64,000 nt of DNA from Ceratobasidium sp. AG-K (taxonomy: Eukaryota > Basidiomycota > Agaricomycetes > Cantharellales > Ceratobasidiaceae), in assembly GCA_037039685.1 (NCBI GenBank), contig JAWNGF010000001.1:248001-312000 (forward strand). Reading direction: 5' to 3'. Within the stretch, counting starts at the first letter, position 1. Every line of letters starts with the position of its first letter. This document shows, piece after piece, positions 14,116 to 20,442 of this stretch. The position numbers and the translations under genes were made by a program. Below the pieces are notes generated by a model. It made no database searches, was not told the origin of the DNA, and was given only the letters and a program-made list of their open reading frames with translations.

Positions 14116-14945
14116 CCAGTTTGCCTGCATGTAATTTGTTGGATGTAACAATTCTTACTATCTGGGCAGGCAAGACACCTATGGCAAGCCATAGTAAATT
14201 GTAAAATCGATTGTTGGGGTACAAAACAAATCAGCCCGATTTGTGCCGTCATACGTATGACTCATGATCACCTCAGGCGCGAGCTAACCCCTTGTTGCTG
14301 CAGAATAAAGTAGGATTTAACCGTGCCTATTTTGACCACCCCTTGCTCGCTTGACGGCTTCAGGGGGATCAATACCACCATGACTACCTATTTTAGCTTG
14401 TGCACCCATGCAAACAAGTCGTGCATCAATTACGCCATGGCACCGCCTACGCTCATGTCCATCACACGGGGGATCGCTATATCATTCCGGTGGTGTAAAG
14501 GAACATATCCGTTTGTCGACTTTTCCGCCACTCGGGTTCCCAGGATGGCTCACGGTGTTAAAACTATCGCTCCCATTGCATTCATTACCGCACAAGCCAA
14601 TCTAGGCCACATAGTGCCTTCCCACGCCTTGACTTGCATTACAGAGGGCTTCCCATGATAATCAAATCTGGGGGTCCCTCGTCGCTCGCTTTCGCGGCTG
14701 CAACGGAGGACGGAGAGTAATCCGGCGATCCGATCTTCCCAGGATCAACCAATGATATGGAATGCGTCACCGAGTCTCGTAACCGGTCAGATTATCGCAA
14801 CTTTTTTGTCCAGATTTTTTCATAGTGAATACGATTTCCACAACGGGGTTCGTTTTGCAAGACTGGGACGCTTTGTAACTATACATAGATCAAGTGCGGC
14901 GAATGTACAGTAGCTACCGATCCTAAAACCGGATACCGGACAGAT
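14116..14945. repeat. gap with a third, very degraded repeat copy
   Basis: About 14320-14640 resembles part of the repeat copies at 9950-10140 and 23760-23950. Shared pieces include a cggtttcc/gggttcccaggatgg-type block and an accatgg..ccgcc block. The rest holds nothing I can support. Confidence 0.35.
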
Positions 14946-17935
14946 CTAAGGCTCGGTCTCACTTTCAGGTTCAGATTCGATATACGCGAGCGTTTCGGTT
15001 GTGATGCTTCCCATCTACGCGCGTGTTCAAATTGTGTTATTCTGTTCAGGCATTGGCTGTACTCACTATGTGTCTAGTGTGAGCCGCGCTTGGACGTCGC
15101 CGAGGCTCATAAGCCCAGCAGCTCGTAAGCAGCGCCCAGAGAATGTTGCCGCCAATACTTTGCGGTGGTATTTTATCCTCCGGCCTGGGTGGAAACCTCT
15201 TCTTGAACACCACAACGGTATACAGGTTACGATCCATCACTTGGCTGAATGGAACCTGGCCACTAATGATTTCCTGAGAAGATAACGTTAGCATAGCCTT
15301 CTTGTTTTGTTTTTTTTTCATCGGGGATTTACAAGTATTGTCTATTGAAGGTCCGATAAGGCTGCATTTATGGGCATCAACTATTTCATACTTACCATTC
15401 CAAGTGCATACACGTCACCCGCACGACTGAGCGGGCTGGATTCCTTGAGTATTTCTGGAGCCTATGATACACGGAAATCAGCCAAGAAGCCTTGGTCCAA
15501 AAGCGCCACATACCGTCCATCGGACCGAAAAGCCGGTGTTGGCCGTTGACGTGAATGATACTGTGGCTCCGGCTAGGCTTGCGTTTCCAAAGTCAGTCAG
15601 CATGGGAGCCCCACTCCCAGATACCAACACGTTGGCCTTTTGGGCTTCATTATTATCCTTGGCCAAGATGTGAAGAAGAAGGTGCTAACGCCTTTGAGAT
15701 CGCCATGAACCTTGTGGTCGATGTTAGTCACAAGATAATCTTAGAATGATTCTGACTTACAATATTTTGACTATGGAGATACTCCAGCCCCTGGCATACT
15801 TCATAACACTGCATGGGCGGTTAAACAAGACATTGGATGGGCTTTTCAATACAGTGCTGACTGCTCACGAATCGGACTCTACTTGCCATTAGACATCGAT
15901 CAACCAATGGATTGTTCGTCAGGTAGGATGTTACCGTCCCGTTCACAGCCCAGGGAGATATCATAGCCAAACGACCCTGAAAATCTGCGAATCCCATAAG
16001 TGGGACTATATTCCGGTGTGCGCACTTGGACCAAGCATAGATTTCCTTGGCCGCACGCTGGGGTCACAATGGCGCTAAGTTGGTATCGTTATTAAGATCT
16101 GAAGCAACAGCTAAACCTTTTGGTATTTTCCGGCTGGTAGTCCATCTGCACTGAGCGGGCGTATCGATTTGATCGCAACAAAAGTGCCGTCGTCAAGATA
16201 GCCGGAATGTACATCACCAAACCCGCCGTTGCCTACGGGATACTGTGAGCAACTTGTGAGGCGAGATGTTAGGTTAGTGCAGCCCCAGCCTCCAAGAAGT
16301 TCAATAAGTTCAAATAACGACTAGGTGTAGAATCTCTAAGATGGACTTTCGGACCTAGCCACTTCGCTTACCAGATGACTGGTCACGACGAAGTCGTTGG
16401 AGATCTTGCCTATTACCGAGGTCCTGGATTGAGCCTGGGGCGTCGCAGATGTACTGTCGAAAGGCTACAAAAGTGGGACGGGTGAGGCGGTCGATAAGTG
16501 GGGTTCGCTAGAGTTACGTCTCCTTCAACTCGCCTCGCTGCCCTCCTAGACAATCAGTGTGATGAAAGGCTGTGTCGGTCGAATAGCTCGAGCACATCAT
16601 ACGTAACTTACAATCTTTACTCAAAACAGTGAACTTGGCTTGGGTCAAACAGTATCGGATAGCACTTACCCTCTAGATCCCAACAAAGAAGCAGAGAATC
16701 CGGTCAATTTCGTGTGAGCAGTTTGAATCTAGCTTACCCCCTGAGTTCCCAACGTGATATTATATTTAGGTCAGTTCGGCTCGCGCAATGTCACACATAT
16801 TTACTACCTTCTACTCATATGATATGGCGACGTTAATAGTCAAGCTTGCTAACACGTTGTTTCGCCCTACTCACCCGCCACACCCCGCCACATCATGAGA
16901 AAGGTCAATTTAGGTCAAACAACGTCACGCCGGACTCACTATCTATGATTTCAATATCACAGTTGAGTCAAGACAATGTGGTCCAAGCAATACAACTCAC
17001 TCTCTGCATCCACAGCAAGATGATTAGATTATATCAGCTAAGCTCGAGCGGTGCTTGCGCGACTCACATCCTTTAGCCCGGTATTGCCGGTAAATCAGCC
17101 TGATTTCAGAAACCCACCCTAAACATACCAGCTATATTCAAAATATAGGACACGACTATCAGCTTAGCCCGAACAATACGACCTCCAACTCACTCGCTAT
17201 GTCCGCGACGTCACAACAAATTGAGGTCAGTTGAGTAAAACAAGACTGCATGTCACTCACTAACTACAGTAGTTGCGCGGATGCAACAAACCGTTAGCCT
17301 ATCTTACATTGACTCATGATTAACTCACAATCTACACCGCCAGAATTGTAGTAAAACCCAAGTTAGCGTCTGTTCGAGAAGCGCCCATAAACCTACCTCC
17401 TACACTTCCGAAATATCTAAGATCTAGATTCGACCACCGCTTATCCGACTGACCTTCTGCATCCCCGGCACAGGTCAGTCTAACGATATTGTGATAATAA
17501 TTACTCGGTACTCGCATCCTGGGTCAGTGACATTGGGTCAGGGGGAGGTGAGTGTAGCCCAAGCATGTTAAACGGCAGGCATCCGGCTCACAATCTACAC
17601 CACAATGTATCACAAGCACAAATTAGTTTGGCCCGAGTAGCACTATATCTCACTTACTTGCTACCTCCCCGGCAAAAAAAAATTATAATGAGTTAGGTTC
17701 GCGTTGCGGATACCAGGTTTGACCCACAGCCTATGCCATACTGCGTTAAATGAATCCAATTTATACAACCAGGGTCGATAACCCTGACTTACACGCTACA
17801 ACAGTGGCATTGGTTGACGCACGGATCAACATACAGTAATGTGAGCTATTTTTCGTGCAACTCACATCCTACGCCCGCAAATCCGGACCGAGGTTGGTGA
17901 GGGTTGCCCTTGAAGAACCGAGCGAGACTTACCAT
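14946..17935 (-). CDS. TKL-type protein kinase with single-codon exons at its 5' end (copy E)
   Basis: The kinase body is an intact family member. Main exons (high to low): 16534-16545, 16372-16464, 16117-16320, 15887-16057, 15761-15808, 15690-15710, 15514-15636, 15396-15461, 15067-15273 and 14946-15014. They encode GNGGFGDVHSG, VAIKSIR, NIVPLMGFA, LEYLHSQNI, VHGDLKG, LTDFGNASL, APEIL, DVYALGM, SCWAYEPRRRPSA and an acidic tail (ESEPESETEP). Exon sizes 171/48/21/123/66 match copy C exactly. All required catalytic residues are present (HGD form of HRD). Upstream, in the same frame, lie 22 exons of 3 nt (separate entry). With the ATG exon at 17933-17935 as start, the product is about 358 residues. 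The ATG context after splicing (A at -3, G at +4) is favourable. Two of the main introns begin with GC (donors at 16533 and 15886). The start and the use of the microexons are inference. Confidence 0.7.
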
Positions 17936-18003
17936 CTGCACTAGCGAAAATGCCTCAGAAAATTAACTCTGCTCGAGCACCACCATATCCAGCTCACATT
18001 CTA
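16534..18003 (-). other. array of 22 three-nucleotide exons between short introns
   Basis: On the minus strand the pattern AG-NNN-GT recurs every 57-76 bp. The 3-nt exons in transcript order, by lowest plus coordinate and codon: 17998 AAT, 17933 ATG, 17866 GAT, 17793 CGT, 17728 GCT, 17658 CAA, 17592 ATT, 17516 GAT, 17454 AAG, 17397 GAG, 17329 ATT, 17261 TTA, 17194 CGA, 17129 CTG, 17068 GAT, 17001 AGA, 16940 ATA, 16875 CGG, 16805 GTA, 16738 GGG, 16670 AGG, 16612 ATT. A 12-nt exon (16534-16545, GAG GGC AGC GAG) follows, then the kinase exon at 16464. Introns are 54-73 bp. Donors are GTRAGT-like (one GC, at 17515) and most introns carry a CTGAY, CTAAY or TTGAC branch-like site 15-35 nt before the acceptor. 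Only one acceptor, before 16877, is broken (TGG for TAG). The introns share a weak core: GCTCGAGC occurs exactly in three of them. There is no stop among the 22 codons. Confidence 0.75.
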
Positions 18004-18354
18004 GATCTACTGTCCCATTAGGGTAATAATTGATGTTCATATTCCCTTGCATCAGCCAACGTGGTCGGTTGCTCACTGTATTTCAAAGGAAATATAGAAG
18101 CAAAGTTGAATGTGAGACGGTCGTCGAAGAAATCAAGGTCGTGGAGGTAACGTGATCTTCAGGCGGTTATGCCAGATTTGTGTGTCTGGGGGTGGTCGGC
18201 ATAAGCGGTATGACCGAGCTGTTCCATAACAAGCTTTTGACGAACATAATTTATCCGAGATTACATGTATGCATGCTTCTATGATTCGAGTCACTGCGCA
18301 TACAGGCTGGTCTGACTCCGCGCAATGACCACGCTTACAGAGTACAGTAAAACA
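18004..18354 (-). other. probable 5' leader region of kinase E
   Basis: A further donor (gtgagc, complement of 18071-18076) would give a 73 bp intron joining an upstream exon (from 18077 upward) to the first 3-nt exon. That exon is open in only one frame and contains no ATG near the junction, which suits a 5' untranslated leader. Its upstream end is not resolved; the foldback element begins at 18357. Confidence 0.35.
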
Positions 18355-18356
18355 TA

Positions 18357-19774
18357 CACTGCCACTCAAAAGGATTGCGACACGTGACTCCGAAAGTCTA
18401 CTCGAGCACTAGCTCCCGAAGCATTCGTTCAAAGAGCTAGAAAATATTAGTGTATGACCACCGTACTGCAATACATATATGTTTAAAATATCTAAGAGAA
18501 ATGAGTCCCTTAAGGCTGTGAAACAAAGAGTTAATGGTATGGGCATGTTGCAATTCTTTTGATGACGCATATACCCGGTGTAAAACAGTCTTTTCCAAGG
18601 CTATATTGAGCGACAAAAAATGAGAAAAAAATCTTTACAATACAATAGTCAGATCAAAGCATAATTTGTGCAAGCCTTGCGCTGAGGTAAGCTGTTTCTG
18701 CGGAGCAAGAGGCGAATAGGTTGCTCGAATAGAGTGTATTCCAGCACTTTCAATATTGGTAATGGTGCTGTTGTTGCATAATAGAATCAATGTGAGCATG
18801 CCTATAGATCACTCTCGTACAGTTAGGGAGGCGTTTGTTTCCGCTTATGAGCAGGAAATCAGTAAAAACTGAAAAGCGTTACTACAGATCCAACTTCCTT
18901 CCTAGATTAATGGAGCTTATATTGTGCGTAGCAAGCGGAAACTTGATCATTTTATTCTCGAGATACGTCTCTAACTCTGTGCCGAGTTTCGACTGTTTTG
19001 AAGCCATGACGGTGAAGCAACGAACAAAACAATGTGTGACAAGTGAGTCAAGTGATTATGCTATTACCAATTTACTATGTGAGGAGGTGACAGCAGTAGT
19101 AATTTGTTCGTTGCTCCACCATCATGGCTTCAAAACAGTCGAAACTCGGCACAGAGTTAGAGACGTATCTCGAGAATAAAATGATCAAGTTTCCGCTTGC
19201 TACGCACAATATAAGCTCCATTAATCTAGGAAGGAAGTTGGATCTGTAGTAACGCTTTTCAGTTTTTACTGATTTCCTGCTCATAAGCGGAAACAAACGC
19301 CTCCCTAACTGTACGAGAGTGATCTATAGGCATGCTCACATTGATTCTATTATGCAACAACAGCACCATTACCAATATTGAAAGTGCTGGAATACACTCT
19401 ATTCGAGCAACCTATTCGCCTCTTGCTCCGCAGAAACAGCTTACCTCAGCGCAAGGCTTGCACAAATTATGCTTTGATCTGACTATTGTATTGTAAAGAT
19501 TTTTTTCTCATTTTTTGTCGCTCAATATAGCCTTGGAAAAGACTGTTTTACACCGGGTATATGCGTCATCAAAAGAATTGCAACATGCCCATACCATTAA
19601 CTCTTTGTTTCACAGCCTTAAGGGACTCATTTCTCTTAGATATTTTAAACATATATGTATTGCAGTACGGTGGTCATACACTAATATTTTCTAGCTCTTT
19701 GAACGAATGCTTCGGGAGCTAGTGCTCGAGTAGACTTTCGGAGTCACGTGTCGCAATCCTTTTGAGTGGCAGTG
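18357..19774. mobile_element. foldback (palindromic) element with Tc1/mariner-like ends
   Basis: Two arms of about 671 bp (18357-19027 and 19104-19774) are near-perfect reverse complements around a 76 bp spacer. By eye I find only two differences near the centre, both transitions. The ends read CACTGCCACTCAAAAGG... and its complement, each flanked by TA (18355-18356 and 19775-19776), as expected of a Tc1/mariner target duplication. Each arm also holds an inner, inverted version of the end motif (around 18550 and 19570), the same outer/inner layout as the transposase-bearing Tc1-like element at 36669-38265. No transposase is present. The frames in the two arms are mirror images, not genes. It sits upstream of kinase E. 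Confidence 0.85.
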
Positions 19775-19776
19775 TA

Positions 19777-20442
19777 AGTCTTGGGTACCCGAACCTCAGA
19801 TATCCACCTTCATCGGCAAATTGACCACCAGCTCGTAAGCGCTAACAAACCAGGTTGCAACCGCTTCCAAACAGAGAAATCTCAGTAAGCCTCAAAATCT
19901 TCTCAAGGCGGATTTTAATCGAAAGAATGCTACCGACTAACTCACAAATCGTTGTAAATTTGAGCCTTATCATTTTGCACATAGTTACCGTTGTAAATCC
20001 GACAATCATTTTCAAGTAAAAAATCGTTGATGTTCCTTGTTTTGATCACAAAATGCTTTCTTACTCACTAGAACGCGTTGTAAACTATGTACAATCAACA
20101 CTCGGGTGTCAGATTGTTAGTTTGAAATGCACAATAGGATTGGCCACCAGTCGCCAAAGCCTTCAGTTTCCAAAATCTGACTTGATAGAGCATCAAATCT
20201 AGTTCTTATTTCTTGTGGTATATACATGTAGACGAGAGATTATGCAGCTCAATGGAATTGAATCAAAGACCTGTCTGTTCACCTGGTATATGCACGTAAT
20301 CCAACCCGGGTCGATTGCAATTTCAGTCCGTGCTTACTGGAATCTATTTATTGCAAGAAGAAAAGAGCAGCGTAAGTGAGCTACAAGCTTATCAATGTGA
20401 TATCAATATCCACAGCATATCATTCACCCCAGATTTACTTAC
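19777..20442. other. no recognisable gene
   Basis: AT-rich sequence with several loosely repeated gttgtaaa words (about 19950-20090). No coding motif. Confidence 0.4.

Follow-up and report, generated by a model that had tools for sequence, protein, structure and literature searches.

Serial single-codon exons predicted to encode the N-terminus of a protein kinase in Ceratobasidium sp. AG-K

Here we analyse a 64,000-nucleotide stretch of DNA, called the window in the following, from the basidiomycete Ceratobasidium sp. AG-K (contig JAWNGF010000001.1, positions 248,001 to 312,000; G000:C1:248001-312000 in the genome searched, which comprises 53.6 Mb in 17 contigs), and in particular a gene on its minus strand. 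This gene very probably encodes a functional protein kinase whose predicted N-terminus is put together from serial single-codon exons, 20 of 3 nt followed by one of 12 nt, through intron-defined splicing of short phase-0 introns. An initial annotation made from the sequence alone had already proposed that serial one-codon exons feed into a kinase. This is the best reading, and it is supported by the paralogs of the gene far more than by the window alone.

On the minus strand of the window, an acceptor-NNN-donor motif is repeated from 18003 to 16534. The strict pattern YAG-NNN-GTRNGH has 27 matches on this strand of the 64 kb, 16 of them inside the 1470 bp from 18003, compared to 7 matches on the plus strand, where at most 2 fall within 1470 bp. 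The longest chain of 3-nt exons in the window scan has 17 members on the minus strand, compared to 2 on the other, while the longest chains in 200 Markov-1 simulations of 64 kb have 1–4. For exon lengths of 1, 2 and 4–12 nt, the chains do not exceed 3 on either strand. With a chain of 17 against at most 4 in the simulations, and with exon length 3 alone behaving in this way, the array is genuine and lies well outside what chance would produce. A branch-like YTRAY site is suitably placed in 20 of the 23 unit introns, compared to a mean of 7.6 and a maximum of 14 in 500 shuffles. These introns are 54–73 nt long, and skipping of the CGG unit would merge the two introns next to it into one of 129 nt. 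A splice parser with a uniform exon-length prior of 1–60 nt places 16 exons of 3 nt in 14901–18100. Tandem Repeats Finder reported no repeat within the window array.

The initial annotation had listed 22 single-codon units at a spacing of 57–76 bp, with every internal exon exactly 3 nt long, GTRAGT-like donors, phase-0 junctions, no stop among the codons and a branch-like site in most introns. The serial 3-nt array stands, and the spacing holds within the unbroken run of 17 units, which stops ahead of the unit with a TGG acceptor. The phase and the absence of stops were confirmed in the window array, and the branch-like sites agree with the count above. However, only 20 units lie in the open reading frame. 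The AAT at 18000–17998 lies ahead of the array's first ATG (17935) and is possibly untranslated, while the CGG unit at 16877–16875 is probably skipped because its acceptor is TGG. The length of 3 nt applies to these 20 exons but not to the last element, 16545–16534, which has a GC donor and for which a reading of 12 nt is preferred over one of 4 nt because it preserves the frame. The donors are GT in 21 of 23 cases and GC in 2, with one weak gtagta, and the acceptors are AG in 22 of 23, the remaining one being TGG.

We now turn to the kinase. The predicted spliced protein has 360 residues, with all introns in phase 0. It starts with MDRAQIDKEILRLDRIKGRI, the product of the 20 in-frame 3-nt exons, and continues with EGSE from the 12-nt exon, the 93-nt exon and a complete kinase domain. 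The match of the model protein to PF00069 has an E value of 1.9e-40 and 139.4 bits, against a curated cut-off of 31.7, which places it among the protein kinases (PF00069 / PF07714). The kinase motifs GNGGFG, VAIK, HGDLKGAN, DFG and APE can be read in the model protein, and the array is in frame with a kinase whose motifs are intact, as the initial annotation had it. It is important to note that the start codon of the kinase has to be spliced in from upstream, since the frame immediately upstream of the 93-nt exon (16464) is closed by the TAG of that exon's own acceptor, and the next methionine after residue 1 is residue 144, within the kinase domain. A protein database search with model residues 1–100 gave 26 candidates, none of them at E up to 0.001, which we read as a database without relatives and thus as uninformative on other strains. 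The introns of the kinase body (16464–14946) are likewise all phase 0, and one extra exon there is just 9 nt long (15341–15333).

Does the same architecture occur elsewhere in the genome? A DNA search with the window gene finds paralogs at C1:189-190k, at C1:209k and on C3. Genome-wide, a pattern that requires three 3-nt exons in a row, each with a GTRAGT donor, has 66 matches, compared to 0 when the pattern is reversed, and manual grouping yields 13 loci. At 10 of these, a same-strand kinase exon lies within about 5 kb downstream among the matches listed, and at C3:243k, C6:865k and C7:840k no downstream kinase exon was found among the matches listed, which are the best candidates only. With GTACGT donors the pattern has 80 matches against 0 reversed, in five of the same arrays and at C5:2291k. 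We have also considered 20 regions that lie upstream of kinase exons, chosen among the best of 124 kinase-exon matches with some near-copies left out. In 9 of them the splice parser with the same prior finds 11–35 exons of 3 nt, and in the other 11 it finds 0–1. Arrays of this kind therefore occur in part of the kinase family and not throughout it. The nine regions are not independent, because L043 and L045 are represented a second time by the near-copies L044 and L046, and L051, L053, L054 and L058 are mutually related. The parser counts are 47 in L010 and 20 in L009, next to the 16 of the window, and among loci chosen by the GTRAGT pattern 32 in L063, 15 in L064 and 17 in L065. In the arrays of these same-genome paralogs, the exon length that the parser finds most often, by a wide margin, is 3 nt. 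Not every array element is a single codon, as the parser also puts other short exons inside some arrays (L060, L063). The arrays in L064 (G000:C6:863500-866500) and L065 (C7:839000-842000) consist of one-codon exons and by eye have W-N-x-Y in common, and no match to the window kinase was found inside the 3 kb examined at each.

The codons themselves can be compared in diverged paralogs. In L051 (with L053, L054 and L058), L060 and L068 there is a block made up of 12 one-codon exons in series, and the exon after it is in each case a similar one of 36 nt. The blocks translate as TLDEAKNAALQH, TLDEAKSAAVEH and TPDEAKNDAVQD, and the 36-nt exon as FLRNNPTMTLSE and YQKKNPDITFSK and, read directly from the sequence, FLRNNPEEMLSE in L068. 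In the three pairwise comparisons, 9, 8 and 7 of the 12 residues are identical. The numbers of differing codons are 8, 7 and 10, of which 5, 3 and 5 are synonymous. This residue agreement was reached in 0 of 5000 permutations for each pair. The intron identities, on the other hand, are 0.560, 0.553 and 0.563, compared to 0.558, 0.559 and 0.550 after shuffling. Because the residues agree, many changes are synonymous and the introns match only at the level of shuffled sequence, the codons look selected as protein. Such amino-acid-keeping codons between wholly diverged introns are difficult to account for if the codons are not joined by splicing and then translated. Moreover, there are 0 stops among 121 codons from diverged arrays, compared to 27 among the 457 background AG-NNN-GT triplets of the window (both strands). 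The list of 121 was compiled by hand and omits the near-copies L044, L046, L053, L054 and L058 as well as the more scattered units of L043, L045, L060, L063, L064 and L065.

Other arrays of the family are homogeneous. Tandem 68-bp units, each a 65-nt intron plus a codon, number 47 in L010 and 18–19 in L009. Units of 112 bp total 107 in L051, L066, L054, L067, L053 and L058, and units of about 109 bp number 28 in L068 and L065 together. L068 (G000:C7:2296500-2301300) represents a third homogeneous family with a 106-nt intron plus codon, present in two stretches, each with a similar diverged stretch after it. Chains obtained for k=7 (17 and 37), given by the scan without their source loci, were set aside as artefacts of the near-identical L009 and L010 repeats. 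In the 68-bp and 112-bp arrays, the mean diversity of the intron columns is 0.02–0.17 and that of the codon columns 0.36–0.73 (1.0 in L053, with 3 units). Codon positions 1 and 2 are more diverse than every intron column in all 7 arrays analysed, while position 3 is matched or surpassed by some intron columns of L009 (1 of 65), L010 (12 of 65) and L067 (3 of 109). Pairs of units with fully identical introns share their codon in 32% of 31 pairs in L054 and 30% of 97 pairs in L067. Such pairs are few elsewhere, with 3 in L010 (33% sharing the codon), 3 in L051 (67%) and 4 in L066 (50%). The 107 units use 10 codons, namely TAT (31), CGA (22), GGA (15), CTT (10), GTT (10), GAT (8), GAA (6), AGC (2), ACC (2) and CGG (1), with no stop among them.

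Certain intron variants are nearly fixed in any one locus but not the same from locus to locus, such as those at positions 14 and 24 in L067 and at 47 in most L054 units, which is a mark of concerted evolution. The linkage between codons and intron variants was examined in 92 intron intervals, with the codons permuted within each locus. Variants at intron positions 3, 12, 13, 15, 24 and 52 show linkage mainly with the codon before the intron, those at 83, 101 and 104–106 with the codon after it, and those at 60 and 69 with neither. Exceptions to a smooth decay are positions 9, 31 and 97, which are unlinked, 30, which is linked on both sides, and 47, which is weakly linked to the following codon. 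The variants near a splice site thus mostly track the adjacent codon and the link is lost mid-intron, as expected if recombination within introns shuffles single codons. One intron tail precedes TAT in 27 of 27 cases at five loci, and it is also found before 7 other codons in L067. Judging by the linkage to adjacent intron variants, the codons behave as inherited cassettes moved by recombination within introns, and not as sites of hypermutation. Another possible cause of the association between TAT and its tail is that the tail is required for splicing of TAT.

Copy numbers also vary between close paralogs. Over 3.8 kb that take in the array, the alignment of L051 with L066 shows 96.7% identity, yet the two have 16 and 24 units by the motif used for counting, and L054 and L067 have 25 and 37. 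Since the arrays of near-identical paralogs differ in copy number and codon order, the comparative evidence points to variation made in DNA rather than to alternative splicing, which might be the source of the single-residue variants envisaged in the initial annotation. Among the matches listed, a search with the 68-bp unit finds 2 arrays only, and one with the 112-bp unit finds 7 arrays and fragments at C5:2119k and C5:2126k only. The two units would therefore be tandem and not mobile introns. Arrays are present at C5:2155k and C5:2291k.

Several observations weigh against the proposed reading. The window array has one TGG acceptor, one weak donor (gtagta) and two GC donors, and its codons are without an alignable homologue, the conservation having been demonstrated in paralogs. 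Some exons of the 12-codon blocks had to be positioned manually. The parser finds 10 of 12 exons in L051, where GAG and GCT are fused in a frame-breaking 56-nt exon, 9 of 12 in L060, and 11 of 12 in L068, where CAA is missed. The remaining exons were placed at a weaker frame-keeping site (GC donor, GAG acceptor) or taken from the chain scan. The parser score is higher for the reversed than for the real sequence in 5 of the 11 loci without arrays, and in L043 the reversed sequence also scores fairly high (128.5, compared to 167.7 for the real one), so that the score alone is a weak test. L009 (G000:C1:188000-194000) carries one TAG triplet (1 of 18 codons scored, at about C1:191314), its exon after the array deviates by eye from the paralog pattern, and this copy may be decaying. 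The intron similarity scores discussed below are modest. Finally, a helical-moment test gave no support for an ordered amphipathic helix in two array peptides, with 827 and 543 of 2000 shuffles scoring as high, and in view of this negative test we make no claim of a coiled coil.

A number of other explanations were considered for the window array. Isolated AG-NNN-GT triplets are frequent, with 457 on the two strands of the window, but a chance spacing of weak splice-like motifs is refuted by the simulations (17 against at most 4) and by the genome-wide reversed-pattern controls (66 and 80 matches against 0 and 0), and its probability is practically nil. It could also be that the region is one long intron, or that the ATG exon joins straight to 16545 or 16464, with the internal sites being relics or points of recursive splicing and the triplets absent from the mRNA. 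All phases being 0, the frame would survive the skipping of any number of units, and one acceptor is TGG. This scenario is nevertheless quite improbable, as the paralog triplets preserve their amino acids and show synonymous changes while the introns are random to each other, and the 121 codons from diverged arrays have no stop. Recursive splice points, to our knowledge, require no triplet, and the 3-nt spacing and the codon conservation would speak against a recursive site with a zero-length exon, from which nothing stays in the mRNA. A further option is that the array was formerly spliced and that the window copy is now decaying, the paralogs being the working genes. The TGG acceptor (16878–16880), the gtagta donor after 16808, the GC donor of the 12-nt exon and the absence of any remaining tandem repeat according to Tandem Repeats Finder would all fit. 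We find this unlikely, however, since the kinase frame is intact through 10 further exons, 22 of 23 acceptors are AG, all 23 donors are GT or GC, and the branch motif is present in 20 of 23 introns.

Two further proposals concern the homogeneous arrays and their origin. Introner-like mobile introns inserted between the codons of an ordinary exon would leave near-identical introns with unrelated codons between them, as is seen. However, they would have to insert precisely every 3 nt and in a single phase, which is unlikely, and neither the 68-bp nor the 112-bp unit is dispersed among the matches listed, which makes this origin hardly credible. The codons of these arrays might also be hypermutated in place by a targeted mutator instead of being shuffled, as the codon columns are near saturation at an intron divergence of 1–4%. 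That only 10 codons occur in 107 units, with one synonymous pair (CGA/CGG), and that TAT invariably follows a single intron tail (27 of 27, five loci), renders such a mutator very doubtful.

Returning to serial splicing of one-codon exons, we propose the following mechanism. Short fungal introns are recognised across the intron. The one-codon exons would be included in the mRNA, probably through stepwise intron removal that proceeds in 5' to 3' order, each step fusing one codon to the upstream exon. The latter would then offer an ordinary donor for the next step, and the 3-nt exon would never be recognised as an exon. The arrays are probably old tandem duplications of an intron-plus-codon unit, and in some paralogs recombination would keep the introns alike while inserting, deleting and reordering single codons with the frame intact. 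Compared to the 68-bp unit, the window introns have a mean z of 1.27 with 5 of 22 above 2 (the CGG unit was entered 5 nt off, at 16872, with a slight effect on 2 of the 22), while the 9 kinase introns of the same gene have a mean of 0.27 and none above 2. In L043, 8 of 16 introns are above 2, and in L045, L051, L060, L063, L064 and L065 there are 0–4 each, 9 of 84 in total. These values weakly suggest that the window array is an old, diverged array of common descent with the tandem 68-bp arrays. Whether the family amounts to a codon-bead system, in which single codons lie between homologous, concerted introns that serve as recombination tracts, selection keeps a small codon palette, and the N-terminus diversifies residue by residue without cost to the frame, is in our judgement evenly balanced. 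One might speculate that the N-terminal segment is a variable docking or recognition segment, which would fit the small, reshuffled codon palette.

The elements of the window gene are collected in Table 1. About 350 bp upstream of the array there is an inverted repeat (18349–19782, 99% complementary) with arms of 680 nt each (18349–19028 and 19103–19782) and a 74-nt spacer, which is either a fold-back element or an assembly effect.

Table 1. Array units and kinase exons of the window gene, in order of predicted transcription (positions in the window).
Element	Positions	Strand	Remarks
3-nt unit AAT	17998..18000	-	tag-AAT-gtgagc; upstream of ATG exon; untranslated or N-terminal
3-nt exon ATG (M)	17933..17935	-	presumed start codon
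3-nt exon GAT (D)	17866..17868	-	
3-nt exon CGT (R)	17793..17795	-	
3-nt exon GCT (A)	17728..17730	-	
3-nt exon CAA (Q)	17658..17660	-	
3-nt exon ATT (I)	17592..17594	-	
3-nt exon GAT (D)	17516..17518	-	GC donor
3-nt exon AAG (K)	17454..17456	-	
3-nt exon GAG (E)	17397..17399	-	
3-nt exon ATT (I)	17329..17331	-	
3-nt exon TTA (L)	17261..17263	-	
3-nt exon CGA (R)	17194..17196	-	
3-nt exon CTG (L)	17129..17131	-	
3-nt exon GAT (D)	17068..17070	-	
3-nt exon AGA (R)	17001..17003	-	
3-nt exon ATA (I)	16940..16942	-	
CGG unit	16875..16877	-	good donor gtgagt; acceptor TGG (16878-16880); excluded from model
3-nt exon AAG (K)	16808..16810	-	weak donor gtagta; hand-placed
3-nt exon GGG (G)	16738..16740	-	
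3-nt exon AGG (R)	16670..16672	-	
3-nt exon ATT (I)	16612..16614	-	
12-nt exon GAGGGCAGCGAG (EGSE)	16534..16545	-	GC donor
93-nt exon	16372..16464	-	VVTSHL at end; by eye similar to corresponding exon of paralog L010
204-nt exon	16117..16320	-	glycine loop GNGGFG and VAIK
Kinase exon	15887..16057	-	GC donor
Kinase exon, 48 nt	15761..15808	-	
Kinase exon, 21 nt	15690..15710	-	VHGDLKG
Kinase exon	15514..15636	-	DFG motif
Kinase exon	15396..15461	-	APE motif
9-nt exon ACAATACTT (TIL)	15333..15341	-	
Kinase exon	15067..15273	-	
Last exon	14946..15014	-	TAG stop

If the codon-bead reading is true, these genes would shuffle exons one amino acid at a time, plausibly to vary a part of a signalling kinase that serves in recognition or docking. 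With the arrays spliced as predicted, standard gene prediction and alignment of RNA-sequencing reads could miss entire N-terminal segments. The genes would also be an extreme case of splicing, with one-codon exons, up to 47 serially (L010), in short-intron genes where recognition across the exon seems impossible. The tandem paralogs would offer a natural experiment in which the intron, and not the exon, is the conserved repeat, and a route to residue-by-residue editing of a protein.

The initial annotation knew of no serial array of single-codon exons, and we likewise found no description of one among the open-access papers listed, judged mostly by titles and abstract openings. In a paper on Rhizoctonia solani AG8, the word "microexon" occurs once, as an aligner setting (PMC4014442). 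The micro-exon genes (MEGs) of schistosomes and tapeworms resemble the present case in having runs of short exons divisible by three, which permit single-residue variation. As defined in PMC7653826, a MEG has 7 exons or more, of which half or more are micro (shorter than 70 nt, with a length that is a multiple of 3), and a run of at least 4. The predicted model falls within this structural definition, with 26 of 31 exons and a run of 21. According to PMC10526429, MEG exons are 3–81 bp long, the introns long and the products secreted. The window gene is not of this schistosome type, since its array introns are 54–73 nt and all its array exons are 3 nt but one of 12. Nearly all array exons here are exactly 3 nt, the product is a kinase, and the arrays of the paralogs are tandem intron-plus-codon repeats. 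That spliceosomes can use such short exons is known from the 1-nt exons of plant APC11 and VPS55, as stated in PMC8831610, and three consecutive microexons are described for RPS24 in PMC11162997. Those genes have single or three consecutive tiny exons, whereas here there are long arrays of one-codon exons.

The Xlr2 gene of Trichoderma also has a functional microexon in a filamentous fungus, but only one, which is regulated. In recursive splicing, a back-to-back acceptor and donor allow stepwise removal of an intron by way of a zero-length exon. The adjoining acceptor and donor and the stepwise removal are shared with the mechanism proposed here, with the difference that a conserved codon would be kept at each step. 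Fungal NLR-type proteins, finally, contain repeats of high internal conservation, in which the repeat body is in concerted evolution and a few positions are variable. In that case the repeat body is protein, while in the arrays described here the repeat body is the intron, and the variable codon is its sole coding part.

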